This document shows positions 29,888-45,676 of a stretch of 64,000 nt of DNA, piece after piece. The position numbers and the translations under genes were made by a program. The DNA is from Stratiformator vulcanicus. Its GTDB lineage: Bacteria; Planctomycetota; Planctomycetia; Planctomycetales; Planctomycetaceae. Every line of letters starts with the position of its first letter. The stretch's first letter is position 1. The stretch spans positions 1,899,712 through 1,963,711 of the forward strand of contig NZ_CP036268.1 of the NCBI RefSeq assembly GCF_007744515.1, written 5' to 3'. The notes below the pieces were generated by a model. It was not told where the DNA came from and searched no databases. It was given only the letters and a program-made list of their open reading frames with translations.

Positions 29888-31503
29888 ACTTGCGAGAAGT
29901 TCTTGACATCCTGGCGATCGATACGCTGGGCGTATCGCTTCCGTTATTTGCACCGGAACTGACCCTGTGCGGCCTGACGGTGGCCCTGCTTCTTGCACGT
30001 CTTTTTCAAATCGATCGGGCAATCTCGCCGCAATGGATCGCGCTATTGGGAGCAGGAACAGCGCTGGCGATTGCTTGTCTCCCCGTTGCGAACGTGATTG
30101 CCGATGGCTCGGGAACATTGCGTCCGACAGAATTGTTCAGCGGTCTGTTAAGGTGGGACGAAGCCACGATCGTCTTCCGCGTCTTGATTTTAGCGGCTTT
30201 TTTTCTGACCGTTTGGCTTTCAATGCTGACGGGACTTCCCGACAGAGACGATGGCCCCGATTACTACACGATGCTGACCGGCACGACGCTCGGCGCCGTC
30301 TTAATGACCGAAGCGAACCATCTATTAATGATGTTCCTCGCCGTCGAGATGGCGAGCGTACCGGGTTATGCGCTCGTCGGATTCCAGAAAGGACGCCGAA
30401 AAAGTAGCGAAGCGGCCTTGAAGTACCTCATTTATGGGGCAGGAGCGGCTGGCGTCTTATTGTACGGAATCAGCCTGATTGCCGGTGCAAGTGGAACGAT
30501 GTCGCTGACGGAATTGGCTCCGAGGCTTTCTCTTATTGCAACGGAGACCGATGGACTTCTCGGGTCTTCATTAGGCCGGGCCGCATCGATCGGGGTGCTG
30601 CTGGCCGTCGCCGGTATTGGATTCAAATTGGCGCTGGTGCCGTTTCAGTTCTGGTGTCCCGACGCATTCGAAGGTGCGTCGGCCGAGACGGCGGGGTTTC
30701 TCTCGGTGGTACCGAAAATCGGAGCTTTCGCGCTGCTCTTAAGATTGCTGTGGCCGCTGACTCAAATGGACGCGGCGTCCGGGTCATCCCTCGCCGTGAA
30801 CTTGGGTCTCGGGTTGGCGGTTATCTCAATGCTGACAATGACGGTCGGAAATCTTGCCGCCTATCCGCAGACAAACTTAAAGCGATTGTTCGCCTATTCA
30901 ACGATCGCCCATGCAGGCTATATGTTGATGGGGCCGGCTGCGGCACTTGTCGCCTCGCAGGCGGCTGATACAGCCCCGGAACATCTCGCGGTCGCGGGGG
31001 GCCTACAGGGGCTCACCTATTACGCTGCGGCGTACGTCTTTATGAACTTAGGTCCCTTCGCGGTCATAGCCTTCATCCGCAATCACACTTTTCGTGAAGA
31101 CATTGAGGGCTGCCGTGGGATGAAGTCGCACTTACCGATTGCATGCGTGGCGATGGCGTGTTGCCTTTATGGCCTGATCGGATTGCCTCCGTCGGGCGGG
31201 TTTATGGGAAAAATTATGGTCTTTTATGCGGGTTTGGCAGCCGGCAATCTGTCACCGATTATGACAGTTATGGTTGTCGTCGCTTCGGCAAACACAGTGG
31301 CGAGCCTGTTTTATTACCTCCGAATTATTCAGTCGATGTTTCTGCAATCGCCCAGTAACTCAGCCGACGTTGAAGAGATTCGGCCCAAGCTGTCCGAAGA
31401 TATATTTCTATTGGTTTTGGCCATACCTGTGATTGTTTCCGGTATTATTGTCTCACCGTTGGTGAACGTTGCCGCGTCTGTGGCGCGCGCGATCACCTCA
31501 TAG
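29884..31503 (+). CDS. nuoN: NADH-quinone oxidoreductase subunit N
   Basis: 539-residue antiporter-like proton pump, last gene of the cluster. Motifs: NHLLMMFLAVEMASVPGYALVG (channel Glu), ALKYLIYGAGAAGVLLYG, GFKLALVPFQFWCPDAFEGA and NLKRLFAYSTIAHAGYM. The 4-nt overlap with nuoM indicates coupling. Eight nt after its stop begins a small unrelated gene. Confidence 0.97.
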   Translation: MNLREVLDILAIDTLGVSLPLFAPELTLCGLTVALLLARLFQIDRAISPQWIALLGAGTALAIACLPVANVIADGSGTLRPTELFSGLLRWDEATIVFRVLILAAFFLTVWLSMLTGLPDRDDGPDYYTMLTGTTLGAVLMTEANHLLMMFLAVEMASVPGYALVGFQKGRRKSSEAALKYLIYGAGAAGVLLYGISLIAGASGTMSLTELAPRLSLIATETDGLLGSSLGRAASIGVLLAVAGIGFKLALVPFQFWCPDAFEGASAETAGFLSVVPKIGAFALLLRLLWPLTQMDAASGSSLAVNLGLGLAVISMLTMTVGNLAAYPQTNLKRLFAYSTIAHAGYMLMGPAAALVASQAADTAPEHLAVAGGLQGLTYYAAAYVFMNLGPFAVIAFIRNHTFREDIEGCRGMKSHLPIACVAMACCLYGLIGLPPSGGFMGKIMVFYAGLAAGNLSPIMTVMVVVASANTVASLFYYLRIIQSMFLQSPSNSADVEEIRPKLSEDIFLLVLAIPVIVSGIIVSPLVNVAASVARAITS

Positions 31504-31510
31504 TCTCAAG

Positions 31511-31954
31511 ATGCTTTTAACATCCCCCACGATGACGCCCGCTCAATTGCTTTCTCGCCTCGGCCGGAGCATGTTGCAGTACGTGGCGGAAACCGACCCG
31601 TGGGTGCCGGATGAAGAAGAGTCGAAAAAAGTGCATCTGCTCGCACTCGCCCAGCGCCAACGGCAGGATGTCGATCGGCTGGTTGAATTAATTTTTCGTC
31701 GGCGCGAGATACCCGACTTTGGTTACTATCCCGTCGACTATACCGACCTGCAGTACCTCGCGCTAAATACTGTTTTTCCGCGGTTAATTCGCGATCAGCA
31801 CGAGCTCCTTGGCGCTGTCGAGGCGACCAACGCCGCCCTCGGCTCGGTCTCGGACGGTCGACCGGTCTTGTTGGAAATCCTATCGAACGAGAGCCGAATT
31901 CTTGACGAACTGCGAGAGATCGCGAACCATGACGCTTCACTCGGAGATAGTTAG
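31511..31954 (+). CDS. Hypothetical small helical protein
   Basis: 147 residues from the ATG at 31511; an ATG at 31532 (MTPAQLLSRL) is an equally good start. No family recognised. Composition suggests an all-helical cytosolic protein with QYVAETDPWVPDEE, ALAQRQRQDVDRLVELIFRR and a LRDQ-like HELLGAVEATNAAL pattern, possibly a helical bundle. It lies between nuoN (7 nt) and the TatD gene (2 nt), so it is probably translated with TatD. Confidence 0.7.
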   Translation: MLLTSPTMTPAQLLSRLGRSMLQYVAETDPWVPDEEESKKVHLLALAQRQRQDVDRLVELIFRRREIPDFGYYPVDYTDLQYLALNTVFPRLIRDQHELLGAVEATNAALGSVSDGRPVLLEILSNESRILDELREIANHDASLGDS

Positions 31955-31956
31955 TC

Positions 31957-32736
31957 ATGCCTTTCGTCGACACGCACTGCCATCTCGACGAGCATGCCTT
32001 CGATGAGGACCGCGAATCCGCAATCGAGCGGGCTCGAGAGGCCGGGGTGGCGGCTATGCTCTCTATCGGAATTAATGCAAAGACGAGTGCCAACGCCGTC
32101 GAGCTTGCTACGCAGCATGACGATATTTATGCCGTCGTCGGAATACAGCCGAATTATGTCTCGCAGGCGGAAGACGGCGACTGGGAGCGGGTACTCGAAC
32201 TGGCGGGCCATGAGAAGGTCGTCGGCATTGGCGAGACCGGCCTCGATCGCTATTGGGACTACGCTCCGATCGAAGAGCAGTCGAAATGGTTCTATAAACA
32301 TATTGAACTGGCCCAAGAGCTGAAAAAGCCATTCATCGTTCACTGCCGGGAAGCGGAGGCCGACGTCGTCGAGCATCTAAACAATGCGGCCGGGGGCGGC
32401 TCATTAACCGGGGTGATGCACTCGTTCTGCGGCGATCAGCAAACCGCCGACGCTTGCCTAAAACTGGGAATGCACATTTCCTTTGCGGGGATGCTGACGT
32501 TTAAGAAAAACCAGGACTTGAGGGCGGTCGCCGCGACCATCCCGCACGAGCGTCTGCTCGTCGAAACCGATTCGCCCTATCTTTCCCCGGAACCAAACCG
32601 CGGCAAACGCAATGAACCGGCAAACGTCGTTCACACCTGCCGTGTGCTGGGAGAGCAGGTCGGGCTGGATATTGAGGAGATGGCGGCCGTGACAACGAAG
32701 AATGCGGCGGAGTTGTTCGGGTTGGTACTGGAGTAA
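31957..32736 (+). CDS. TatD family metal-dependent DNase/hydrolase
   Basis: 259 residues, normal for TatD. The TIM-barrel metal ligands are in place: DTHCHLDEHAFDEDR (4-18), GETGLDRYWD (Glu ligand near 90), HCREAE near 129-134, MHSFCGD near 155 and ETDSPYLSPEP near 204-214. Family members are Mg-dependent 3'-5' exonucleases acting on DNA or RNA and may also edit D-aminoacyl-tRNA. ATG at 31957, two nt after the preceding small gene. Confidence 0.93.
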   Translation: MPFVDTHCHLDEHAFDEDRESAIERAREAGVAAMLSIGINAKTSANAVELATQHDDIYAVVGIQPNYVSQAEDGDWERVLELAGHEKVVGIGETGLDRYWDYAPIEEQSKWFYKHIELAQELKKPFIVHCREAEADVVEHLNNAAGGGSLTGVMHSFCGDQQTADACLKLGMHISFAGMLTFKKNQDLRAVAATIPHERLLVETDSPYLSPEPNRGKRNEPANVVHTCRVLGEQVGLDIEEMAAVTTKNAAELFGLVLE

Positions 32737-32751
32737 TCACCAAAATCCAAT

Positions 32752-32913
32752 GGGTGGCTGGGGACGGGCGCAATTTTGAGTCGTGTTTGATCACGTCAAA
32801 CGGCTTCCATTTGCAGTATGGCCGTCCGCCCCCAGTATGTAAGATCAACGGGTGAATCTGACTTCACCCCGCGCTCGCTGGGGGCGGCTCTGCGAGACCG
32901 TCCCCAGCCACCC
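32752..32913. repeat. Structured repeat family C, copy 1
   Basis: 162 nt bounded by perfect 16-bp terminal inverted repeats, GGGTGGCTGGGGACGG (32752-32767) and its complement (32898-32913). Nested inside are a perfect 10-bp stem CCGCCCCCAG (32826-32835)/CTGGGGGCGG (32878-32887) and a 7-bp hairpin GGGTGAA/TTCACCC (32850-32856/32863-32869). A duplicated piece of the right arm follows at 32915-32930. Confidence 0.88.
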
Positions 32914-32976
32914 GTCGTCCCCAGCCACCCGCCGCCTCAATCTGGCTGTCATTCATGAATTTGTAAGTTCCCTATA

Positions 32977-33399
32977 ATGCGACACACCCTCTTGTTGAAC
33001 GCTGATGGGGCGGCGCAATTCGGTTGTGGCCTGATCGTCATCCATCCGACTGATGTCGTGTATTTCCATCAAGCTGGTGGCACAGCGACCGTCCTGAAAT
33101 CGCAGGAGGGGTTTTTTGTTCCACTGGGATGTGTGCCGGTTGCTGCGAAACTTCGGCGTTTCTTCCAATCAAGATTCGGTGGCGACAGTACATCCGTTAG
33201 GATGAAGGACGCTGATGTCGACGAGACTCAGTCTCTTCTCTCAGAGGTGCCTGTCTGGAGTTTTGGCGGGGAGACTGCCGAAGACCGCGTGACCTTTCTA
33301 TCTGTCAACGAGCTCACACGGAATAGTTCGGTCGAAGGTTGGGTTCCGGTAGACTCTGCGTATGGGCCGGCGATATTCATCTTTGATAACAGCGATTGA
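32977..33399 (+). CDS. Small accessory protein (possibly DUF6210)
   Basis: 140 residues, cytosolic, mixed alpha/beta. It begins HTLLLNADGAAQFGCGLIVIHPTD and ends GWVPVDSAYGPAIFIFDNSD; this start and end resemble my memory of the DUF6210 family, which I cannot confirm here. Base composition is lower in GC than the flanks and codon use is less biased. The gene sits between copies 1 and 2 of a 160-nt structured repeat, a setting that suggests an acquired accessory gene. Function unknown; immunity-protein-like roles are speculative. Confidence 0.6.
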   Translation: MRHTLLLNADGAAQFGCGLIVIHPTDVVYFHQAGGTATVLKSQEGFFVPLGCVPVAAKLRRFFQSRFGGDSTSVRMKDADVDETQSLLSEVPVWSFGGETAEDRVTFLSVNELTRNSSVEGWVPVDSAYGPAIFIFDNSD

Positions 33400-33419
33400 A
33401 AATGAAGTTTGACTGATGA

Positions 33420-33602
33420 TTGTTGGTCTCGCTTCAATTTGGTCAATTGACTGAGAAAGAGTGCCGCCTTGCATACGGCGAGCCAATTTTGTTTCCAATC
33501 AACCGGGGAGAGACTGTCGAACTCACATCCGACGGTTTCAATTCGAGATATGATTCTTGTTTAAAGTGTTTCGGCTGGGTGGCTAGGGACGGGCGCAAAT
33601 AA
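33420..33602 (+). pseudogene. Possible gene remnant truncated by repeat C
   Basis: A 60-codon frame with a TTG start and protein-like sequence in the middle (KECRLAYGEPILFPINRGE, then YDSCLKCFGWVA) but no proper start. Its last 9 codons run into the left arm of repeat C copy 2 (from 33577), suggesting that the element cut an older gene. It may also be chance. Confidence 0.25.
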
Positions 33603-33735
33603 GCGATCGAGACCAGTTGCGTCCCAAGACTTACGTTAGCAATACGCCCGCCCTCAGAAATTGAGATCAACAACTAGTTCTGACTTCACCCCGCGCTCGC
33701 TGGGGGCGGCTCTTCGAGACCGTCCCCTGCCACCC
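33577..33735. repeat. Structured repeat family C, copy 2
   Basis: 159 nt with 16-bp terminal arms GGGTGGCTAGGGACGG (33577-33592) and CCGTCCCCTGCCACCC (33720-33735), two mismatches. The right half, from 'ttcaccccgcgctcgctggg' to the end, is almost identical to copies 1 and 3; the left half is diverged but keeps a C-rich segment (cgcccgccctcag) facing CTGGGGGCGG. Confidence 0.85.
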
Positions 33736-33789
33736 GCTGCATTGCTCTGCGACAGTGGCCACGTTGCAATAAGCGTGCGAACTTCACAC

Positions 33790-33813
33790 TGCCGGGGCGG
33801 CACGCCCCCGGCA
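33790..33813. other. Short perfect hairpin
   Basis: TGCCGGGG (33790-33797) and CCCCGGCA (33806-33813) with an 8-nt loop, just upstream of the next gene. No T-run follows at once. Possibly another dispersed palindrome. Confidence 0.5.
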
Positions 33814-33844
33814 CCCGAATTTCTTTCCTTGTTTTGTGTCGGAC

Positions 33845-34237
33845 ATGTCTCTAAGTAGCCGGTTGATTGCCTCCTTCAAGCACGCGTTCGCCGTCGATGC
33901 CGGGCCCGTAGAGCCGACAGCCCGGCAGGCGGAGGTGATTGACAAGCTTTGCCGGGAGATTGTGCGACGAGGGATGGTGGCACCGGCGCTGATGACTTTG
34001 GAGACGTCGCGGCCATTGAACTTCGTGTCATCGCAGGCGATTCACTTTTTTGATCCGCTGGTTTCGGCGATCTCGGATGCGACGGCTCACCGCGAATTGG
34101 CCGAGTTCCTTGAGCAACGCGGGTCGGTGGAGTACATCGGAGGGAGGTTGGAGGAGACTGCGGGGGAAGCTGAGAGCGAAAGGACGTCGATTGGTGATTC
34201 TGAAAGCGGAAAGCGGAAAGTGGAGAGCCGGGAGTAG
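33845..34237 (+). CDS. Small hypothetical protein upstream of the GlmL-like gene
   Basis: 130 residues from the ATG at 33845. Residues 1-90 look like a folded domain (LIASFKHAF, ARQAEVIDKLCREIVRRGM, LETSRPLNFVSSQAIHFFDP, LAEFLEQRGSVEYIGGRLEE). The last 25 residues derive from the low-complexity 'gcggaaagcgg' type sequence common in spacers here, so the original stop may have been lost. It precedes the ATPase gene on the same strand but a repeat C copy lies between, so operon membership is uncertain. No family recognised. Confidence 0.6.
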   Translation: MSLSSRLIASFKHAFAVDAGPVEPTARQAEVIDKLCREIVRRGMVAPALMTLETSRPLNFVSSQAIHFFDPLVSAISDATAHRELAEFLEQRGSVEYIGGRLEETAGEAESERTSIGDSESGKRKVESRE

Positions 34238-34240
34238 CTT

Positions 34241-34401
34241 GGTGGCTGGGGACGAGCGCGAAAGGTGGTTCGTGAACCATTCCGTCGGAAAATTTTATTC
34301 GGCTATACAGCCGCCAGCCCCCAGTCGGTGGAGTCAACAAATAATGCCTGATCCACCCCGCGCTCGCTGGGGGCGGCTCTGCGAGACCGTCCCCAGCCAC
34401 C
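34241..34401. repeat. Structured repeat family C, copy 3
   Basis: 161 nt with 14-bp perfect terminal inverted repeats GGTGGCTGGGGACG (34241-34254) and CGTCCCCAGCCACC (34388-34401). Inner hairpin arms read GGTGGA/TCCACC where copy 1 has GGGTGAA/TTCACCC: different bases but pairing kept. It ends 30 nt before the start codon of the GlmL-like gene, so it would lie in the leader or promoter of that operon. Confidence 0.85.
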
Positions 34402-34431
34402 CGTCGCTTTCGGAAGGGAGCGTGACTCCCG

Positions 34432-36270
34432 ATGTCCGATAGCGACTCGACGATCCCGCCCACCACCTCCCCCTCCGTCATCTTCGCCACCGATTGTGGG
34501 TCGACGACGACTAAGGCGATTTTGATCGAGAATGTCGATGGCGTTTATCGGCAAACGCACCGCGGCGAAGCACCGACCACCGTTGAAGAGCCGGCTGCCG
34601 ACGTGACGGTTGGGGTGATCAACGCTGCGACGGAGGTCGGCGAATTGGCGGGCCGGCGGCTCGTCAATGAACAGGGCGAGATCATCCGCCCCGCGGGCGT
34701 CGGGCCTGACGGGAAGCCCCAGGGGTGCGACATCTATATTTCGACCTCTTCGGCCGGGGGTGGGCTGCAGATGATGGTGGCGGGGGTCATCAGCGAGATG
34801 TCGGCGGCGTCGGCGACGCGGGCGGCCCTCGGGGCAGGGGCGATCGTGATGGACACCCTCGCCGTCAACGATCACCGCAAGCCGCACGAACGGATCCAAA
34901 GGATCCGTGAACTGCGGCCCGACATGATCCTGCTCGCCGGCGGCACCGATGGCGGGAACGTCAAGAAGGTCGTCGAGATGGCCGAACTGATCGCTCCGGC
35001 GAAGCCCCGCCCGCGATTCGGCGGCGAATATCAGATGCCGATCATTTACGCGGGCAACGGGCAAGCTCAGGCAACGGTCGAGAAAACACTCAGCAGCGAG
35101 TTCGCGCTGAAAACGGTGCCGAACGTCCGGCCGATCATGGAGCGGGAAGACCTCGCACCGGCGCGGGATGCGATTCACGATCTGTTCCTCGAACACGTCA
35201 TGGCCCATGCCCCCGGCTATCCCAAGCTGATCGACTGGACCGACGCGCCGATCATGCCGACGCCCGGGGCGGTGGGGAATATCCTCGAACGAATTGCCCT
35301 CGCTCAGAAGATTAACGCCGTGGGTGTCGATATCGGCGGGGCGACGACAGACGTATTTAGCGTCTTCATCGAACCCGAGACCGGCGAGCCGAAGTTCAAC
35401 CGGACGGTGAGCGCGAACCTCGGGATGAGCTATTCGATTTCAAACGTCGTCGCCGAGGCAACGCTGGAAAACGTGCTTCGTTGGGTGCATCTCGACATGG
35501 ACCCGCGCGAACTTCGGAACCGGGTCAAGAACAAGATGATCCGTCCCACGACGATCCCGCAGACGATGGAGGCCCTTGTCTTTGAACAAGCGGTCGCGCG
35601 CGAGGCGTTGCGGCTCGCCTATCAGCAGCACAAAGAATTCGCGACGACCTTAAAGGGCGTGCAACAACAGCGGACGATCGGCGATACCTTTACGCAAGGG
35701 GCGGGGGGGCAGTCGATCGTCGATAACATGCGGCTCGACCTGCTGGTGGCCTCGGGCGGTGTGCTGTCGCACGCCCCGCGGATGCAGCAGACGGCGGCGA
35801 TGCTGATCGATGCATTCGAGCCCGAAGGTTTCACGACGCTGGCGAAGGATAGCATTTTCATGATGCCGCACCTCGGTGTGCTGGCCGAGGTGCATGAGCA
35901 GGCGGCACTGGAGGTCTTCGAGCGGGACTGCCTCATCTACCTGGGCACGTGCGTTGCGCCACGGGGAGCGGGCAAAGCGGGTCGGCTGTGCTTCGAGTTC
36001 GAAATGTCCGGCGACCTGAATGAGCGGGGCTCGCTCAACGTCGGCGAGTTGCAGTTATTTCCGCTTTCTGCGGAGCAACGGGCAAAGGTGACGATCCTTC
36101 CCGCTCGCGGTTTCGACTGCGGCGCGGGAAAGGGTCGGGAAATCACTCGCGAAGTCCGCGGCGGCGAAGTCGGGTTGATTCTCGACGCGCGAAGACGGCC
36201 GTTGATGTGGGACGCGGAAAGTTCCTCTAAGATCGTCCGCGACAGTGTCGAAGCTCTCGCCCTTTATTGA
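34432..36270 (+). CDS. GlmL/MutL-family ASKHA ATPase
   Basis: 612-residue cytosolic protein of the actin/Hsp70 ATPase superfamily, like the GlmL (MutL) accessory protein of B12-dependent glutamate mutase. Two phosphate-binding motifs are present: DCGSTTTK (21-28) and DIGGATTD (300-307), plus GGTDGG (170-175) and an adenosine-type LLVASGGVLSHAPR motif near 440. In anaerobes GlmL reactivates glutamate mutase, but no glmE, glmS or B12 enzyme gene is in this window; instead the gene heads a run of barrel/KOW and membrane-protein genes. I infer that it energises or assembles that membrane complex. The protein extends beyond ordinary GlmL (about 460) with a C-terminal domain of about 120 residues (FEFEMSGDLNERGSLNVGEL). 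Confidence 0.85.
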   Translation: MSDSDSTIPPTTSPSVIFATDCGSTTTKAILIENVDGVYRQTHRGEAPTTVEEPAADVTVGVINAATEVGELAGRRLVNEQGEIIRPAGVGPDGKPQGCDIYISTSSAGGGLQMMVAGVISEMSAASATRAALGAGAIVMDTLAVNDHRKPHERIQRIRELRPDMILLAGGTDGGNVKKVVEMAELIAPAKPRPRFGGEYQMPIIYAGNGQAQATVEKTLSSEFALKTVPNVRPIMEREDLAPARDAIHDLFLEHVMAHAPGYPKLIDWTDAPIMPTPGAVGNILERIALAQKINAVGVDIGGATTDVFSVFIEPETGEPKFNRTVSANLGMSYSISNVVAEATLENVLRWVHLDMDPRELRNRVKNKMIRPTTIPQTMEALVFEQAVAREALRLAYQQHKEFATTLKGVQQQRTIGDTFTQGAGGQSIVDNMRLDLLVASGGVLSHAPRMQQTAAMLIDAFEPEGFTTLAKDSIFMMPHLGVLAEVHEQAALEVFERDCLIYLGTCVAPRGAGKAGRLCFEFEMSGDLNERGSLNVGELQLFPLSAEQRAKVTILPARGFDCGAGKGREITREVRGGEVGLILDARRRPLMWDAESSSKIVRDSVEALALY

Positions 36271-36286
36271 GGTACCGATTACTTTG

Positions 36287-36323
36287 CCTCTCACCCCTCA
36301 CCAATAACCCGTCACCTCTCTCC
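36287..36323 (+). promoter_or_regulatory. CT-rich leader abutting the ATG
   Basis: 36288-36323 is a 36-nt CT-rich sequence (starts ctctcacccctcaccaataa) directly before the ATG at 36324. It is 31/36 identical, ungapped, to the leader before the second exbD at 21352. It holds no Shine-Dalgarno. Either a dispersed low-complexity repeat that happens to land before ATGs or a shared translation signal. Confidence 0.5.
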
Positions 36324-37454
<1,131 letters not shown>

Positions 37455-37457
37455 CTA

Positions 37458-38381
37458 ATGACGAACAAATTGCAAATCACGAGCATTGCGATCGGAGCAG
37501 GGATATTCGCATCCCTCCTGGTATCAATCGCATTCGTTGCTCCGGCCGGTGTTGAGTCGGGACGCGTGTGGACCGGTCTGTTCTTAATTCTTGTGACGGC
37601 AGTCATTGGCATCTTTATTGTCGCCGCGAGAGGCGGAGCCAACTTAAAAATTCGGCATATCCCCGGCCTCGACGCCGTGGCGGAAGCGGTCGGCCGGGCG
37701 ACGGAGATGGGGCGCCGCATTCTGTTTGTGCCCGGCATCCAGGATGTGAAGGATATGCAGACCATCGCCGGAATTACGGTCCTGGCGAAAGTGGCCCGCA
37801 CCGCGGCAGAATACGACGCGGAAATCCGCGTTCCAGTCGCCCGCTCGCTTGTGATGGCGATGTGCCGCGAAACGGTGCAGTCGAGTTATCTCCTCGCAGG
37901 CCGACCCGATTCTTACAACGCGGATGATATTTACTATCTGACCGATGAGCAGTTTGGTTTCTCAGCGGCCGTGACCGGCGAAATGATACGGGACGAACCC
38001 GCTGCGTGCTTCTATATGGGGGCCTTCTTTGCCGAGTCGCTCTTGCTTGCTGAGACGGGGCAGGCCGTCGGCGCCGTTCAAGTCGCAGCGACCGCGGAGC
38101 CGAGCCAATTGCCGTTCTTCGTGGCCGCGTGCGACTATACCTTGATTGGCGAAGAACTCTTTGCGGCGTCGGCTTATCTGTCTGGTGAGCCGCAGCAGCT
38201 CGGCAGCTTGAAAGGGCAGGATTTCGGCAAGCTGCTGGCCTGCTTACTCATCCTCATCGGATGTGTGATCGCGACGGCGGCGCAGTTTAGCGACTCAGAT
38301 GTCTTTACCGGTCCGCTTACCTATCTGAGCGAAAATATGCTCGGCGTTAAAGGCTTTTGGAATCTGGAGACTAGCGAGTGA
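37458..38381 (+). CDS. DUF6754-type membrane protein
   Basis: 307 residues. Two spans near the N-terminus (about 8-30 and 35-54) and one near the C-terminus (about 255-275) flank a cytosolic or periplasmic domain with GRRILFVPGIQDVKDMQTIAGITVL (partial: RRILFVPGIQDVKD), RVPVARSLVMAMCRETVQSSY and AACFYMGAFFAESLLLAETG. This sequence type corresponds to DUF6754 as I remember it; no function is known to me. ATG is 3 nt after the upstream stop; its own stop overlaps the GTG start of the next gene. Confidence 0.78.
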   Translation: MTNKLQITSIAIGAGIFASLLVSIAFVAPAGVESGRVWTGLFLILVTAVIGIFIVAARGGANLKIRHIPGLDAVAEAVGRATEMGRRILFVPGIQDVKDMQTIAGITVLAKVARTAAEYDAEIRVPVARSLVMAMCRETVQSSYLLAGRPDSYNADDIYYLTDEQFGFSAAVTGEMIRDEPAACFYMGAFFAESLLLAETGQAVGAVQVAATAEPSQLPFFVAACDYTLIGEELFAASAYLSGEPQQLGSLKGQDFGKLLACLLILIGCVIATAAQFSDSDVFTGPLTYLSENMLGVKGFWNLETSE

Positions 38382-39100
38382 AACAGACCATACCGCTGTT
38401 TATCGCTGGAGTCGTCGGTTTCGTTCTCATCGGGGCGTGGTTTTTTCCCGTCGCCTCGGGATGGGGTGACACGGCGATCAAGTGGTTCAATGTCATCGCC
38501 GCGATGGCGCTCATTCTCGGCGGATTAAATCTCCTCAAACTCAACCTGCAAAAGATCACTGCGCGAAAGCCGGGTTGGGGATACTCGGCAATTACAATTG
38601 TCGCGTTTCTGACGACGTTATGCGTTGGACTGTTGAAGGTCGGTGTCACGCCGTCCGAGGCCTTCCCGGCCGCGCGATGGGGCAATGACTTTCAGCAGGA
38701 AGGCTCCGCCCTGTGGTGGTTGTTCGAGTTCGTGCTGACACCACTGAATATGACGATGTTCAGTCTGCTGGCCTTCTTCGTGGCGTCAGCTGCATTCCGT
38801 GCGTTTCGCGCGAAGAACATTGAAGCAACACTTCTGTTATCGACTGCCATCATCGTGCTGCTGGGCCAGACTTTCGCTGCGGGGTATTTAACGGGCTGGC
38901 TACCGGAGTTCCCCGTTGATCCTACTGAGACGCCGAACTTTTGGGCCTACTTCCGGCTTGAGGTTTTAAAGGAGACAATTCGTGACGTTCCCACCGCGGC
39001 CGGAATGAGAGCGATCACAATCGGAATTGCGCTCGGCGTCGTGGCGACATCGCTGCGGGTCCTTTCCGGCATCGATCGATCCTACTTGGGCGGAGATTAA
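38378..39100 (+). CDS. Polytopic membrane protein of the GlmL-like locus, 240 aa
   Basis: 240 residues with about six hydrophobic segments (approximately 5-25, 35-53, 67-88, 108-135, 143-170 and 205-225). GTG start overlaps the upstream stop by 4 nt (GTGA). No family recognised. A conserved-looking motif, KLNLQKITARKPGWGYS at 50-66, lies in the first cytosolic loop, and a Trp/Pro-rich loop GWLPEFPVDPTETPNFWAY near 172-190 faces the other side. Directly abuts the following gene (no gap), so the three membrane proteins are probably made in fixed proportion. Confidence 0.75.
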   Translation: MKQTIPLFIAGVVGFVLIGAWFFPVASGWGDTAIKWFNVIAAMALILGGLNLLKLNLQKITARKPGWGYSAITIVAFLTTLCVGLLKVGVTPSEAFPAARWGNDFQQEGSALWWLFEFVLTPLNMTMFSLLAFFVASAAFRAFRAKNIEATLLLSTAIIVLLGQTFAAGYLTGWLPEFPVDPTETPNFWAYFRLEVLKETIRDVPTAAGMRAITIGIALGVVATSLRVLSGIDRSYLGGD

Positions 39101-40891
39101 TTGGTGCTGCAGTTCCTTTCGCAAATCGATCGCCGATGGGTGTTTCTGGCGATGCTGCTGGCGGTCGGGGTGCCCGTATTGACCGGTTTGACCTTTCCCG
39201 AAACGCCGTCGCCGATGGTACGCAGTACCTATAAGGTCATCGAAGACCTGCCGGCCGGTTCGAAAGTTTTGCTCGCGCTGGACTATGATCCTGGGGCCCA
39301 AGGCGAATTGAAGCCGATGACGGAAGCGTTTACGCGTCACTGCTCATCGAGAGGGCATCGGCTCATTCTGGTGACGACGTGGCCGCAGGCTCCGCGGTTC
39401 ACCAAAGAGGCCCAGGACATTTCGCTCGATGACTTTCCCGATCGAACTTACGGAGAAGATGTCGTCAATCTCGGTTTTCGGACCGGTGAAGAGGGAGTGA
39501 TTAAAGGCCTCGTCAACGACTTGCCGGGAACCTACGCGGCCGACGTTTATGGAACGAGCGTCGAAAATCTTCCGTTGACGAAGGGAATGAAGTCGATTCA
39601 AGACGTTGACCTTATCATTTCGGTCAGCGGCGGATATCCCGGCGCCAAAGAATGGGTCCAATATGCGGCGACGCCCTACGGTATCAAAATGGTCGCTGGT
39701 ACGACCGGAGTTCAAACGCCTTATCTAACTCCTTACGTTCCGGATCAACTCAGTGGCATTCTTGGCGCCATTAAGTCGGCAGCGGAGTACGAGTTTCTTC
39801 TTAAGAAGAATCATCCGGAGATCGAATTTGAAGCGCTCGCGATGGAGCGGATGGGGCCGCAGCACTCGGCTCACCTGTTGATGATCTTTCTGATTATTGC
39901 AGGCAATGCGATCTATTTCACTTTGCGTCGTCGCCCATTTCGTACGACTGACGAAACGGAGCGTCAAGAATTGCTGGCGTTCTCGACGTTGTTGCTCCGC
40001 GGTGCTTTCGTGCTCGTCCTCGGAGGGGTCGGACTGGTTGCCGTGGGGCAACTCATGCTCGGAAACGATCCGGGCGCGCGCTACGAGCGGTCCACCGAGA
40101 TGGAAGTGAAAACAGACGACGGCTCGGTCGCGAAATGGACCGAAGTCTCAGGCGCGGAGGCATCGGAGGTCGGCGATGCCGACGTGAGTTGGAGTCCGGG
40201 ACGGACGATCGGAGTGTGGATCGCCGCCCTTTTAACATTAGCGGTGTTTTCATTTCTGTACGGTGATAACCCGCTTTATAAAACGACGGAGTCGATTTTT
40301 GTCGGTGTGTCGGCCGGGTATTACATGGTCGCTTCGTTCTGGAACGAACTGATCGCAAATTTATTTGGCCGGCTTCTACCGACAACGGCTCGTGATCTCG
40401 GCGTTACGAATCTTGACGGCCAGATCGAGAATTGGGACCCGTTGTACATCGTTCCTCTGATTTTAAGCCTGATGGTGTTAACGCAATTGATCCCCGGCAA
40501 AGGTTGGATCGCGCGGTGGCCACTGGCCTTTTTCATTGGTGCGACCGCGGGGATTAAGATCACGGCGTTTTTCGAAGCTGACTTCATTCGTCAAATCCAA
40601 GCGACCGTCTTGCCGTTAATCGTCTATTCGTCCGATGTGAGCCTGAGCGCTAATTTTGCGTCGACGTTGCGAAATCTGACGATCATCCTCGGCGTGACGA
40701 GCGGGCTGACTTATTTCTTCTTTTCGGCCGAGCAGCGTGGAGCCGTCGGAGGTTATGCCCGAATCGGAATTTTGATGCTGATGATTACGTTCGGGGCCGC
40801 GTTCGCGTTCACGGTGATGGGACGGATCGCGTTATTGGTCGAGCGGCTCCAATTCTTGTTTGTCGATTGGCTGCGACTTGTCGGCGGATAG
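39101..40891 (+). CDS. Large membrane protein of the GlmL-like locus, 596 aa
   Basis: 596 residues; TTG at 39101 follows the previous stop without a gap (GTG at 39104 is the alternative). One span at 12-30 leads to a soluble domain at about 35-245 with a Rossmann-like beat: KVLLALDYDP, HRLILVTTWPQ, YGEDVVNLGFRTGEEG, DLIISVSGGYPGAKEW, GIKMVAGTTGVQ. About eight further spans occupy 255-590. The soluble domain most likely sits outside the cytosol. A hydrophilic insert near 325-365 separates two halves of the membrane part. No known family recognised; last gene of the operon. Confidence 0.75.
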   Translation: MVLQFLSQIDRRWVFLAMLLAVGVPVLTGLTFPETPSPMVRSTYKVIEDLPAGSKVLLALDYDPGAQGELKPMTEAFTRHCSSRGHRLILVTTWPQAPRFTKEAQDISLDDFPDRTYGEDVVNLGFRTGEEGVIKGLVNDLPGTYAADVYGTSVENLPLTKGMKSIQDVDLIISVSGGYPGAKEWVQYAATPYGIKMVAGTTGVQTPYLTPYVPDQLSGILGAIKSAAEYEFLLKKNHPEIEFEALAMERMGPQHSAHLLMIFLIIAGNAIYFTLRRRPFRTTDETERQELLAFSTLLLRGAFVLVLGGVGLVAVGQLMLGNDPGARYERSTEMEVKTDDGSVAKWTEVSGAEASEVGDADVSWSPGRTIGVWIAALLTLAVFSFLYGDNPLYKTTESIFVGVSAGYYMVASFWNELIANLFGRLLPTTARDLGVTNLDGQIENWDPLYIVPLILSLMVLTQLIPGKGWIARWPLAFFIGATAGIKITAFFEADFIRQIQATVLPLIVYSSDVSLSANFASTLRNLTIILGVTSGLTYFFFSAEQRGAVGGYARIGILMLMITFGAAFAFTVMGRIALLVERLQFLFVDWLRLVGG

Positions 40892-41174
40892 ACGGGCTGG
40901 GCTGAATGAACACGAAAGCCCTCCGTTTTGTTGATCGTAGATCGCGGACGTTCGGAACGAGTTTGTGAGTTTGGTGCAAGCCTCCGGTCCAAAAGAGTTC
41001 GCACTTCTGCGAAGTATGAATTCTGTGCAATTTGCGGCTTGCCCTTTTTCCGAAGGGTGCCGAAGATACGCCCCTGAGAAGCCGTGAGTCGTGATTGCCG
41101 TCAACGTTGCCCTATTGGTGGACGTGTCAGATTGCGGCTCGAAACTAGAGACTCTCCGGATAAGAGGCACAACC

Positions 41175-41381
41175 ATGCGCGTGATCACCTGTCGGACCCA
41201 AGAGCAATTGGTCATCGACGAGGATATTCGGATCACGGTCTTGGAAATTGATGAAGAGGGAGTCCATATCGGGGTCACTCAGCCCGGCAATGAACCAGAG
41301 TATTTTGAATACGTTCTTCAGCCGCAATTTGAATCGGATTTCGGATCTGACATTGAACCGGCCTTCGCGATAAGCCGCTAG
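41175..41381 (+). CDS. CsrA-like protein lacking the RNA-binding arginine
   Basis: 68 residues from the ATG at 41175. Aligned by eye to E. coli CsrA: M-x-V/I-x-T at the start, EQLVIDEDIRITVLEI matching the beta2-beta3 region, and HIGVTQP matching RIGVNAP. The critical RNA contacts are changed: L4 is I, R6 is C and R44 is F (EYFEYVL in place of VHREEIY). It carries an extra acidic tail of 18 residues. The fold is probably CsrA's beta-dimer, but canonical GGA-motif binding looks doubtful; it could be a partner or antagonist of a true CsrA. Isolated gene with ~280 nt upstream. Confidence 0.8.
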   Translation: MRVITCRTQEQLVIDEDIRITVLEIDEEGVHIGVTQPGNEPEYFEYVLQPQFESDFGSDIEPAFAISR

Positions 41382-41593
41382 TCGGAGACTGCCGACAACG
41401 CCGCCCGTTAAGTCCGAGCGGCGATGGCAACGGAACGATCGATTTCGGCAAGCCAGTTCGAAGATCCGTGACGCCTGTCCTAGTGCATTGGCATTGTCGA
41501 AGGTTCGGCAACGTCCCTTTGAGGCAGTGGCTCTAGGGCGTTGAGCGATGCGTCGCCTGTTGCGGGTTGGCGTTTTCGAGCGGGTTGTTCACA

Positions 41594-42447
<854 letters not shown>

Positions 42448-42451
<4 letters not shown>

Positions 42452-43350
42452 ACGACTGGATGCTCGGACGTCGATTACTTGTCTCCGCTTTGCTGATCCC
42501 CGGCGCCATCGGGCTGTTTGTGCTCGATGCGTATCTGGGTCCGACCGCGCCGATTTTGTACCTCTTGGCGATTTCGGTTGCGGTGCGAATGGTGTGGGAG
42601 TTGGCGGGCCTGCTCCGTTCGGAACAGCCGAGCGTGACGCTTTCGAATCTCTGCGTCGTTGGGCTGATTACGGCGCACTGGATTCCTCATTTTCTGGCGG
42701 GCGAGGAGGGTTTGTCGCGCAGCCTCTCCGAAGCGATGGGGCCTTCGGCGCTGGCCTACACGTTGTGTCTACTCGTCATTCTTTCGCGGCGGGCTTTTGT
42801 CTACCGGGAACCGACGGGGCATCTGGCGACTCTCGGAGCCGAGACGCTGATCCTCAGCTACGCCGGCATGCTGATCTGCGCAACGACGCAACTGCGATGG
42901 GTCGCGGGGGCCGATCTCGGTTATCTGGCATTGGGTTCTCTCGTGATCGCCACAAAGGCTGGCGATATCGCCGGTTACGCATTCGGTCGTGCATTCGGAA
43001 GAAGTAAGCTCGCGCCTCGCCTGAGTCCTGGTAAAACGAAAACCGGGGCCGTTTGGGCGATCGTCGCCTCGTCCATCGCGACAGCGGCATGGCTTCATTG
43101 GGCGACTCCGCTGTTTTCTGCCGACGCAGCGCTCGGCCCGTGGTGGCTGTTGCTGATCTACGGCGCGGTTGTCGGCCTCGCAGGTATCGCGGGCGATTTA
43201 TGCGAATCGGTCCTCAAGCGGGCAGCCGGGAAGAAAGACGCGGCAGACCTCATGCCCGGTTTTGGAGGACTACTCGACCTGATCGATAGTCCCCTGTACG
43301 CCGGACCGGTCGCTCTGTTTTGTTGGGAATTCTTACCGATCGTGAACTGA
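42448..43350 (+). CDS. cdsA: Phosphatidate cytidylyltransferase
   Basis: 300-residue membrane enzyme making CDP-diacylglycerol from phosphatidate and CTP, the branch-point of phospholipid synthesis. About eight spans. The C-terminal signature is present: GDIAGYAFGRAFGRSKLAPRLSPGKT near 172-197 (in part) and GDLCESVLKRAAGKKDAADLMPGFGG near 250-275 (in part), with conserved D residues. TTG start at 42448 overlaps the uppS stop (TTGA); an ATG at 42460 is the alternative. uppS-cdsA is a classic bacterial pair. Confidence 0.94.
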
Positions 43351-43676
43351 ACCGACGGAAATTCATGACTTCTTAAGCAAATTCCGGCTTAACGCTTGTT
43401 TCCTTCAGCCGTCTCTCGAAAAATGCCCTAAGAGAGGTCGGCCCACCCCATTGAATGGCTTCTGAATGGCTTCGATTTCCCGATCGCTTGCAAACCGGAT
43501 CGGGAACCGGCATTCCGCCTGATGAATGCAGATTGGCTGATTGCAGACTGCGCCGTCGCGGACCGCCCATTGAGAGTACGAGCGCGACCGACCTTCTTGA
43601 TCACTCCGGCTTGGTTACCCTTCCGAGGGCGACGGGCCGATATTTTCGGAACCTTTGCTTTCGGTACGTCACGATT
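43351..43676. other. Spacer without recognised features
   Basis: 326 nt between cdsA and the DUF309 gene. Contains only a 10-nt direct repeat 'gaatggcttc' (about 43453-43472) and a short palindrome around 'tttcccgatcg'. The frame of the DUF309 gene is open here but the residues are Arg/Cys-rich and non-protein-like. Confidence 0.5.
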
Positions 43677-44249
43677 ATGTCAAGCTTTCAAATTTCAGAA
43701 GAGCAAGAAGTACCCCGGCTTCTTCCGCATATCGATCTTCCCGAATACACGTTTATCACGGGTCGCGGATTGCCGCATCCTTATCGCGATCCGCGCGGGC
43801 ACAGCCATCAGAAGAAGAACCGCACGCCGAAGCCTTTGAACGCCGAGGCTTGGGCAGAGAACCGGGCCTACCTGCTGGCGATCGATCTGTTCAACTACGG
43901 CTACTACTGGGAGTCACACGACGGCTGGGACCGTCTGTGCCGCGTCTCAGGCGCGGATACGGAAGTCGGCAAGTTCCTCAAAGGCTTGGTGAAGATGGCT
44001 GCGGCGGGGATGAAGGTCCGCGAGCAGAGCATTCACGGCGTCCGCCGACATGCGGCCTCGGCGGGCGAGGTGTTCGCCGACGTCGCTGCCGAAGCGGGAA
44101 ATGAGTACTACTGCGGACTGGAACTGACGATGTTACAGTTCGCCGCCGATCGCGCCGCTCAACTCTCATACAAGCGAGATCTCCCGCTCGGACAACCGTT
44201 GCGGGTCTTCCCATTCCTGCTGCAGCCCGAACCAATGCCGCTGGGCTGA
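43677..44249 (+). CDS. DUF309 domain-containing protein
   Basis: 190 residues from the ATG at 43677. Earlier in-frame starts (from 43455) would add an Arg/Cys-rich stretch unlike a protein. DUF309 signature: [20 protein letters not shown] near residues 73-92 and [20 protein letters not shown] near 103-122, with His/Glu pairs suggesting a helical bundle binding site. Cytosolic, function unknown. Converges with the TPR gene, 32 nt apart. Confidence 0.82.
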
Positions 44250-44281
44250 GCCGAAATGTCAGCTGGGAAAGCTGGGCCGAT

Positions 44282-45676
44282 TCAAGCTTTGGCCTGCAGG
44301 TTCTCCAACCGTTTGCGTGCGTCGCGATAGTCGTATTCGATCGCCAGCACTTGGCTGTAATGGTCCTCGGCTTTGTCACGATCGTCGGCGTCTTCGGCCA
44401 GCCGTCCGAGGACGTAGTGCGACTTCAGGTAGAGCCCTTCTTCGTCATGTTCGTTGATCAATGACAGCGCTTTCTCGAATTGCTTGAGCGCCAGGGCCTG
44501 TTTGCCGTCATTCACGAAGCACTCGCCGAGCAATACGCGGGCGTCCGGTTCGATCCGGTTGTCTGCGCTGGCGCGCTGCAGCAGCGGAATCGCCTGCTCC
44601 CACTTCTTGAACATCATATAACGCTTGGCGAGATCGAACTTGATGCGGCTGTTCTGCGGATAGCGTTCGACGCGAGCGGCGAAGATTGAAATCTCTCGCT
44701 TCGCCAATTCGGCTTTGAGGGCGGTCACTTTTTTGCGAGCCGCTTCCTTGTCCTCTTCAGTTTTGAGCTGCTCTTCGGCGACCTCAATGTTTTTTCGCAT
44801 TTGCTCAAGCCGAGTGTCTTCGTACTGCTCGGCAATGTTCTGATCGCCCGACATTTGGGCGGCCTCTTTATAGAGCTTCGCCGCCTCTTCCAGCCGATCC
44901 TCTCGCCGATAGTAATCGGCGAGCTTTGTTTTGAGATCGCGGTCGTCCGGCTTTTTCTTCATGGCCCGAAGCATGTCGGCTTCGTACGACTGACCGGGAC
45001 CGTCGATGTCGGGCGGACTGTCGGTGTCGGCCCCATCTCCCGCGTCGGCGGCATCGTAGGCAGTCTTCGGCTGAGTGTTTCGCGATGACGTCGCGCTGCC
45101 GAGCGTACCTTCGATCATCTTTGTACTCGCCAGGGCAACGCCTTTTCGACGAGCGTTTTGGTCGTCAGGATCAATTTTGACGACCTTGTTCCAGACACTT
45201 TGAGCCCGATTGTAGTCGCCTCGTTCTTCCAGCAAGTTCGCGAGCCGACGAAGATAGCCGAGGTTTTCGCCGTCGACTTCGAGAGATTTCTCAAGCGAGA
45301 AAATCGCGACTTCTTCGTAGCCCCGTTCCTCAGCCGCTTGGGCGACATCCGAGTTGAACCCCTCGTCCCACGGATTGAGCCGCAAAGCTTTCTCCGCTTC
45401 CAGATCGAGGGCGTCCCAGTTCTTTTTCATCTTCGCCCGCTTGATCTTGCCGCGAATCCCCATCAGTTTCGGTCCGGCAAACCGCGCTCCGGTCTTGTTG
45501 TCGCCGTACTTGCGTTGCTCAGCGAACCGCAACGACTGGCGGTAAATGAGGTTATCGGGGATCAACGTCGCGCATTGCGTAAACATATCGATCGCGTAGT
45601 CCCAGTTTTCTTTGGACATCGCTTCGTTGCCGTGCTTGAAGCAGTTAGCTGCGATCGATTTCTTGTCTTGCGCCAT
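44282..45676 (-). CDS. Tetratricopeptide-repeat protein
   Basis: 464 residues made of about eight TPR-like helical pairs, for example CFKHGNEAMSKENWDYAIDM near 12-31, LEKSLEVDGENLGYLRRLAN, ADYYRREDRLEEAAKLYKEA near 240, FDLAKRYMMFKKWEQAIPLL near 340 and the C-terminal KAEDHYSQVLAIEYDYRDA. A charged coiled-coil stretch (EEQLKTEEDKEAARKKVTAL) separates two TPR blocks, and a Gly/Asp linker (about 185-215) separates the first. No signal peptide; probably a cytosolic scaffold. Upstream, 124 nt away on the same strand, is the HhH gene. Confidence 0.85.
   Translation of the reverse strand: MAQDKKSIAANCFKHGNEAMSKENWDYAIDMFTQCATLIPDNLIYRQSLRFAEQRKYGDNKTGARFAGPKLMGIRGKIKRAKMKKNWDALDLEAEKALRLNPWDEGFNSDVAQAAEERGYEEVAIFSLEKSLEVDGENLGYLRRLANLLEERGDYNRAQSVWNKVVKIDPDDQNARRKGVALASTKMIEGTLGSATSSRNTQPKTAYDAADAGDGADTDSPPDIDGPGQSYEADMLRAMKKKPDDRDLKTKLADYYRREDRLEEAAKLYKEAAQMSGDQNIAEQYEDTRLEQMRKNIEVAEEQLKTEEDKEAARKKVTALKAELAKREISIFAARVERYPQNSRIKFDLAKRYMMFKKWEQAIPLLQRASADNRIEPDARVLLGECFVNDGKQALALKQFEKALSLINEHDEEGLYLKSHYVLGRLAEDADDRDKAEDHYSQVLAIEYDYRDARKRLENLQAKA

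Follow-up and report, generated by a model that had tools for sequence, protein, structure and literature searches.

The genome of Stratiformator vulcanicus is one contig of 5.23 Mb, of which we analysed a stretch of 64,000 nucleotides (the window, to whose positions all coordinates refer unless stated otherwise). The subject of this work is a row of genes on its + strand, hereafter the unit, which encodes a GlmL/MutL-type ATPase together with soluble and membrane partners. It opens with P0 (33836-34237; GTG start, with an ATG at 33845), a small soluble protein of 133 amino acids that has relatives in other loci. The ASKHA ATPase follows (34432-36270; 612 amino acids), identified by Pfam and carrying a C-terminal extension from about residue 500 to 612, past the Pfam MutL domain. 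The next open reading frame (ORF; 36267-37454) encodes a barrel/KOW protein, recognised by weak profile matches, which measures 376 amino acids from the ATG at 36324. Three membrane proteins complete the row: a DUF6754 protein assigned by Pfam (37458-38381; 307 amino acids), which is a short form without FN3 domain; TM5 (38378-39100; 240 amino acids), defined by hydropathy and by its relatives; and a protein of 596 amino acids (39101-40891), a single ORF here, in which the structure model and relatives distinguish the parts ROSSN and ROSSC. From the ATPase onwards, the genes are separated by 53 nucleotides, 3 nucleotides, a 4-nucleotide overlap and 0 nucleotides, so that the five ORFs and the spacing described in the initial annotation were reproduced. 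For P0, the barrel protein, TM5 and the ROSS protein of the window, Pfam gave no family above cut-off.

The initial annotation had also proposed a five-part set. All five parts are real members; nevertheless, the set was undercounted, as P0 is a further member and the gene that closes the unit is a fusion of two genes. Indeed, among the 101 sources scanned, ROSSN and ROSSC are a single ORF in the window only (0 of 100 other loci).

Conservation and spread of the seven families

With the DUF6754 protein as query, we scanned the species genomes of GTDB, which gave at least 567 relatives, and kept the best 80 loci (L010 and L033 are one record, counted once, as L011 and L059 are one record; L040 lies in genome G283). 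In these 80 loci, many of which sit on contigs that end early, relatives were found for TM5 in 78, ROSSN in 75, ROSSC and KOW in 73 each, MutL in 67 and P0 in 63. Where the contig extended more than 5.5 kb on the upstream side and 3.5 kb on the downstream side, all seven families were present in 49 of 52 loci, and the three incomplete ones (L040, L075, L090) have MutL elsewhere in their genomes. The commonest order, P0-MutL-KOW-DUF6754-TM5-ROSSN-ROSSC, occurs in 56 of the 80 loci. For the alignments, ORFs outside the length ranges or containing X were excluded and near-copies were thinned.

The set is not confined to Planctomycetota. All seven families were present in 18 of 18 loci fetched from Fidelibacterota (Neomarinimicrobiota), which were picked from 92 matches with a preference for long contigs, as well as in both loci fetched from Acidobacteriota. 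In 15 of the 18 Fidelibacterota loci, P0 has KOW on one side and DUF6754 on the other, and one locus of this phylum (L126) has four extra ORFs of 224-765 amino acids between DUF6754 and TM5. As the same genes are linked repeatedly, and in one order, in three phyla, their association is more than chance. The genomes positive for DUF6754 numbered 76 of 294 in Planctomycetota, 92 of 149 in a sample of Fidelibacterota and 3 of 199 in one of Acidobacteriota, where the genomes used to draw the last two samples (G311 and G314) are counted among the positives; it was found in none of 14 control genomes. The positives of the Fidelibacterota sample include assemblies near 1 Mb, of unstated completeness.

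Among the 294 Planctomycetota genomes, DUF6754 and MutL occur together in 70, DUF6754 only in 6, MutL only in 10 and neither in 208 (odds ratio 243; Fisher value 4e-49, which overstates the independent evidence because the genomes are related). Six genomes whose MutL matches all lie below the cut-off (G145, G248, G259, G285, G301, G309) are not counted as MutL-positive. A wide occurrence of the membrane genes without the ATPase, which the initial annotation had named as a finding that would speak against its proposal, was not seen: all 6 of the 76 DUF6754 genomes that lack a MutL match above the cut-off are drafts of 310-1140 contigs. Three genomes with MutL only (G072, G086, G092) are 72-79% complete, and another (G215) carries short MutL copies (460-470 amino acids, two loci) with other neighbours. 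The 21 near relatives of the window genome divide into 8 with both families, 12 with neither and one (G012) with MutL alone, in a gene reaching the contig end. The recurrence across loci and these co-occurrence counts led us to reject chance neighbourhood.

Moreover, the families are retained together even where they are not adjacent. In the 70 genomes that possess both DUF6754 and MutL, the two genes lie within 10 kb in 44, far apart on one contig in 5 and on different contigs in 21. The most dispersed case, G004 (one contig of 6.36 Mb), has its seven parts in six places, at 119 kb (P0), 294 kb (KOW-DUF6754), 793 kb (MutL), 2.30 Mb (ROSSC), 3.48 Mb (TM5) and 3.53 Mb (ROSSN). In G300, also on one contig, four places hold P0, MutL, KOW-DUF6754-TM5 and ROSSN-ROSSC, respectively; in such scattered genomes ROSSN and ROSSC were distinguished by where, and with what score, they matched a joint profile. 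Selection on the set, and not on the operon, is the best explanation for sets that are scattered yet complete. The parts are thus inherited and retained jointly, and the seven proteins, of which four lie in or span the membrane, almost certainly constitute one unit.

The ATPase and the question of glutamate mutase

The ATPase matches Pfam MutL (PF13941) with 427 bits over residues 18-500 (cut-off 27, E=9.8e-128). The motifs DCGSTTTK and DIGGATTD are both present, as initially annotated, and the corresponding columns do not vary across the 30 aligned ATPase rows, the window included, with a mean column identity of 71% over the alignment. These invariant phosphate motifs and the high identity suggest real ATP turnover. 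A PDB profile search with MutL did not find a clear relative.

Considering that the top NCBIfam match of the protein is GlmL (NF040745), known as the accessory ATPase of methylaspartate (glutamate) mutase, a vitamin B12 enzyme, the ATPase could be an ordinary GlmL that serves a glutamate mutase and lies here by chance. The match reaches 221 bits, well below the equivalog cut-off of 475. We compared 41 chosen genomes, of which 35 have the system and 6 are MutL genomes negative for DUF6754. Glutamate mutase (PF06368) was found in 0 of the 35 system genomes, the window genome included, as against 5 of the 6 DUF6754-negative ones (G030, G059, G117, G253, G307), where its E gene lies in each case at most about 200 nucleotides from MutL; the sixth (G215) has no mutase. 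The absence of a mutase subunit beside the ATPase, already remarked in the initial annotation, extends to whole genomes of this comparison. A normal association of this ATPase with mutase subunits, the other finding named there as speaking against the proposal, was likewise not seen. In a tree of 43 MutL proteins, six GlmL-type rows (two from G215), some of them on very long branches, separate with 100/99 support, leaving the system ATPases on a branch of their own, and the linkage to the other genes is kept in three phyla. Lengths differ as well: unfused system ATPases in the tree have 588-642 amino acids, the GlmL-type rows 393-531, at least one of the latter being cut by a contig end. An ordinary GlmL is refuted for the sampled genomes by bit score, mutase counts and tree, and we consider it very improbable in general.

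The likeness to GlmL/MutL thus consists in the same Pfam family over residues 18-500 and in both phosphate motifs, while the window ATPase is about 110 residues longer at its C end, stands on a separate branch and belongs to a genome without mutase. In addition, the system ATPase is as a rule found beside KOW, DUF6754, TM5 and ROSS. Our literature search, with most subscription journals outside its range, found nothing on DUF6754, PF20539 or PF13941, nor anything on Gimesia with glutamate mutase or, among the papers listed, on the system; passages of PMC5167688 concern true glutamate mutase and mismatch-repair MutL.

Proposed cytoplasmic and membrane modules

The arrangement of the genes across genomes suggests two modules. 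The cytoplasmic one would comprise P0, the MutL-type ATPase, the barrel/KOW protein and, often in relatives, a small PH-like membrane protein; the membrane one DUF6754, TM5, ROSSN and ROSSC. The two lie distant from each other in G235 and G107, though close together in L114 and L115, which come from the same family. In three loci (L103, L104, L105) the membrane module is doubled next to one MutL-KOW. We also observed a genome (G187) with a full set containing two membrane modules plus two MutL-KOW fusions of 824 and 835 amino acids (L106:7277-9748, L107:8309-10813); no membrane-module gene was present in the 18 kb fetched around each fusion.

The barrel protein appears to comprise a barrel-sandwich-hybrid part (similar to biotin/lipoyl, RnfC_N and NqrA_N domains) and, at its C terminus, a KOW-like part, with a middle part between them. 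Matches are weak: at E up to 0.1, the 42 aligned barrel members gave Biotin_lipoyl in 30, RnfC_N in 18, KOW in 9 (best E 0.0036) and NqrA_N in 6, and the window protein reaches 18 bits with RnfC_N, under the cut-off of 25.6. A PDB profile search gave no clear relative, an SPT5 KOW chain appearing weakly at E 0.34, and no membrane helix was seen by hydropathy in the relative from L026. The initial annotation had cast this protein as a link between the ATPase and the membrane proteins. MutL and KOW are one ORF in five loci (L080, L083, L091, L125, L126; 874-1022 amino acids), and these natural fusions support a probable contact between ATPase and barrel protein, so that this half of the proposal gains weight; the bridge to the membrane part we infer. 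Over 77 loci, the correlations between the distance matrices of the seven families range from 0.76 to 0.95 and are highest for MutL with KOW, in keeping with this contact; the values include shared descent, for which they are uncorrected.

P0 was aligned over 48 rows. Its relative in L070 has no membrane helix by hydropathy, and a PDB profile search with P0 did not find a clear relative. The small PH-like protein, which has two hydrophobic stretches and whose PH-like matches are weak, occurs in 53 loci, mostly directly before P0 by coordinates; in the window it was not found.

Regarding the membrane proteins, the DUF6754 assignment, made in the initial annotation, was borne out by Pfam (PF20539: 395 bits, cut-off 27, E=1.6e-118), and the window protein is a full member of the family. 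It shows a hairpin of two hydrophobic stretches, a Rossmann-like domain and one helix. Most relatives are longer (74 of 80 GTDB relatives have at least 340 amino acids; proteins below 340 account for 6 of 80 in GTDB and 12 of 18 in Fidelibacterota). The model of a long relative from L026, with a mean predicted local distance difference test (pLDDT) score of 85.6, opens with a signal-like helix and an FN3 domain and continues with a Rossmann-like domain set between two helices. The FN3 domain was recognised by fold (best match Z 14.4, root-mean-square deviation 1.9 over 97 residues), the Pfam fn3 model matches 15 of 53 DUF6754 members, and PDB searches with DUF6754 listed almost only FN3 matches. 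In the window protein a loop of about 10 residues takes the place of FN3 and the hydropathy pattern is retained. From hydropathy and positive charges, we read the Rossmann-like domain of DUF6754 as lying on the inner side.

TM5 has a conserved FRAFRAKN.EA loop and, as we read its hydropathy, six hydrophobic stretches; some relatives exceed 600 amino acids because a loop placed outside carries about 370 inserted residues. In the ROSS protein of the window, residues 1 to about 285 hold a Rossmann-like domain with one helix before and one after it, and the remainder is polytopic. The model has pLDDT values of at least 90 for most of residues 10-270 and low values in the C half. The confident part of the model and the topology (hydropathy, positive charges) support an outer position of this domain, which the initial annotation had put on one side of the membrane; the binding of a substrate outside and the motor role of the ATPase, both suggested there, are presumptive. 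PDB profile searches with TM5 and with ROSSN returned no clear relative. Over 104-112 rows, near-invariant polar residues include E193, E199, Q208, C225, D226, E232 and E233 in DUF6754, together with H258 and N269 in the second helix of ROSSN. We rejected a shared ancestry of the two Rossmann-like domains, and likewise of TM5 and ROSSC, since profile comparison gave at best a probability of 14% over 25 columns.

Neighbouring genes and possible function

Downstream of the unit in the window lie uppS and cdsA, at 0.7 and 1.6 kb (41567-43350, + strand), and both genes also come after the unit in four distinct relatives (L026, L033, L052, L086). The window genome (G000) has a second cdsA at genome positions 4730077-4730910, with 215 bits as against 136 for the one adjacent to the unit. 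In Fidelibacterota, cdsA lies within 5 kb of the unit in 17 of 21 loci and less than 100 nucleotides away in 10 of those 17; one or two cdsA matches occur in 19 of the 20 genomes searched, none in G576, and in G647 the gene lies farther from the unit. The gene plsX stands 0.3-1.6 kb past ROSSC in 20 loci, which belong to Phycisphaerae or to unassigned Planctomycetota, and is followed by fab genes. It is from these neighbours alone, phospholipid and fatty-acid genes in several lineages, that a lipid substrate is proposed.

On the upstream side, a DUF6210 gene (Pfam; 32977-33399) lies between tatD and P0, probably as a local insertion, since no relative was found among the ORFs of 95 loci. A 24-base sequence is repeated identically three times on the + strand in the gaps around this gene and P0 (32867-32890, 33689-33712, 34356-34379); its mean count in shuffles is 0, and it looks like a dispersed intergenic repeat. 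An Rfam search of window positions 30000-45000 found no known RNA element. A known anti-phage system was rejected (PADLOC, 0 of 7 proteins), as were phage genes (PHROGs, 0 of 7 proteins); in viral contigs two stretches fit a pattern and neither was confirmed.

Taken together, a set kept jointly in distant bacteria is very probably an unrecognised membrane machine, whose proteins would form a physical complex. For its function we tentatively propose, at clearly less than an even chance, that it is driven by ATP and works at the inner membrane on a lipid or on an envelope substrate linked to a lipid. The barrel/KOW partner would dock the ATPase on the inner face of the membrane module; the ATP cycle would then drive or reset conformations of this module, which may present Rossmann-like domains and near-invariant polar residues on both faces; and, as the most speculative step, the module might move or hand over a lipid or a lipid-linked envelope precursor.

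Nearly as likely as such a lipid machine would be a reactivase of a membrane enzyme, itself an unlikely but serious candidate: the membrane module would be an enzyme complex and the ATPase a chaperone that, like GlmL, releases a damaged cofactor or product. Characterised members of the GlmL/MutL family are reactivases, the many near-invariant polar residues of DUF6754 and ROSSN resemble those of an active site, and the biotin/lipoyl-like matches of the barrel protein would also fit. On the contrary, a partner enzyme was not found in the conserved set, where no systematic search for cofactor motifs was made; the tandem loci, with one ATPase and two membrane modules, also count against a reactivase, although it could serve both modules too. 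Less probable again, in our view, is an assembly platform without any transport, where the ATPase would serve, like PilM or FtsA, as switch or scaffold in positioning an envelope complex. PilM and FtsA have the ASKHA fold too, the ATPase has several membrane partners, and the long DUF6754 relatives expose an FN3 domain outside; but the ATP turnover suggested by motifs and identity does not favour a mere scaffold, and Pfam assigned none of the seven to a pilus, secretin or divisome family.

Several observations weigh against a lipid machine, or against a fixed set. The solved relatives retrieved by PDB searches are limited to FN3, weak barrel/KOW matches and generic Rossmann folds, the best fold match of ROSSN being itself generic (Z 9.5). 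Oligopeptide transporter (opp) genes border the unit in several Fidelibacterota, and nuo/tatD in Planctomycetaceae; the lipid neighbours may therefore be incidental. Those found within one phylum may also reflect a single event, and their counts carry no random-window baseline. Finally, G171 (L113; a draft, 99% complete) has P0-MutL-KOW and no DUF6754, TM5 or ROSS was found in it, a real exception so far. This genome is either a natural test of the cytoplasmic module alone or an assembly gap. We also noticed opp genes on both sides of the unit in six Fidelibacterota loci (L118, L121-L123, L133, L134).

Comparison with known systems gives partial likenesses. The barrel part of the KOW protein would resemble RnfC/NqrA and biotin/lipoyl barrel-sandwich domains, to judge by weak, below-cut-off matches, while no other Rnf or Nqr family is present among the seven (Pfam). 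An inner-face ATPase combined with membrane proteins that have outer domains recalls, in its way of working only, ABC transporters and the PilM platform of type IV pili; by Pfam, the seven include neither a P-loop or ABC ATPase nor a pilus family, and the adjacent Opp genes lie outside the set. The most far-reaching version of the lipid proposal is a new class of ATP-driven transport or export, powered by a GlmL-type ASKHA ATPase instead of a P-loop or P-type one, docked through the barrel/KOW protein, with Rossmann-like domains that bind ligands on either side of the membrane, and acting on an envelope substrate linked to a lipid; it would be core equipment in Fidelibacterota and widespread in Planctomycetota. 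This version is doubtful, standing between the reactivase and the assembly platform in likelihood. We know of no membrane transporter driven by an ASKHA ATPase.

In conclusion, the name GlmL, if taken from the best family match, would mislead in genomes that carry this system. The set is defined well enough for study in cultured planctomycetes, and structural work would find ready-made targets in the MutL-KOW fusions that occur naturally and in the fused ROSS protein of the window. If the proposed machine is real, bacteria would possess a machine in the membrane that draws its power from a kind of ATPase which, to our knowledge, has not been known to drive membrane transport.

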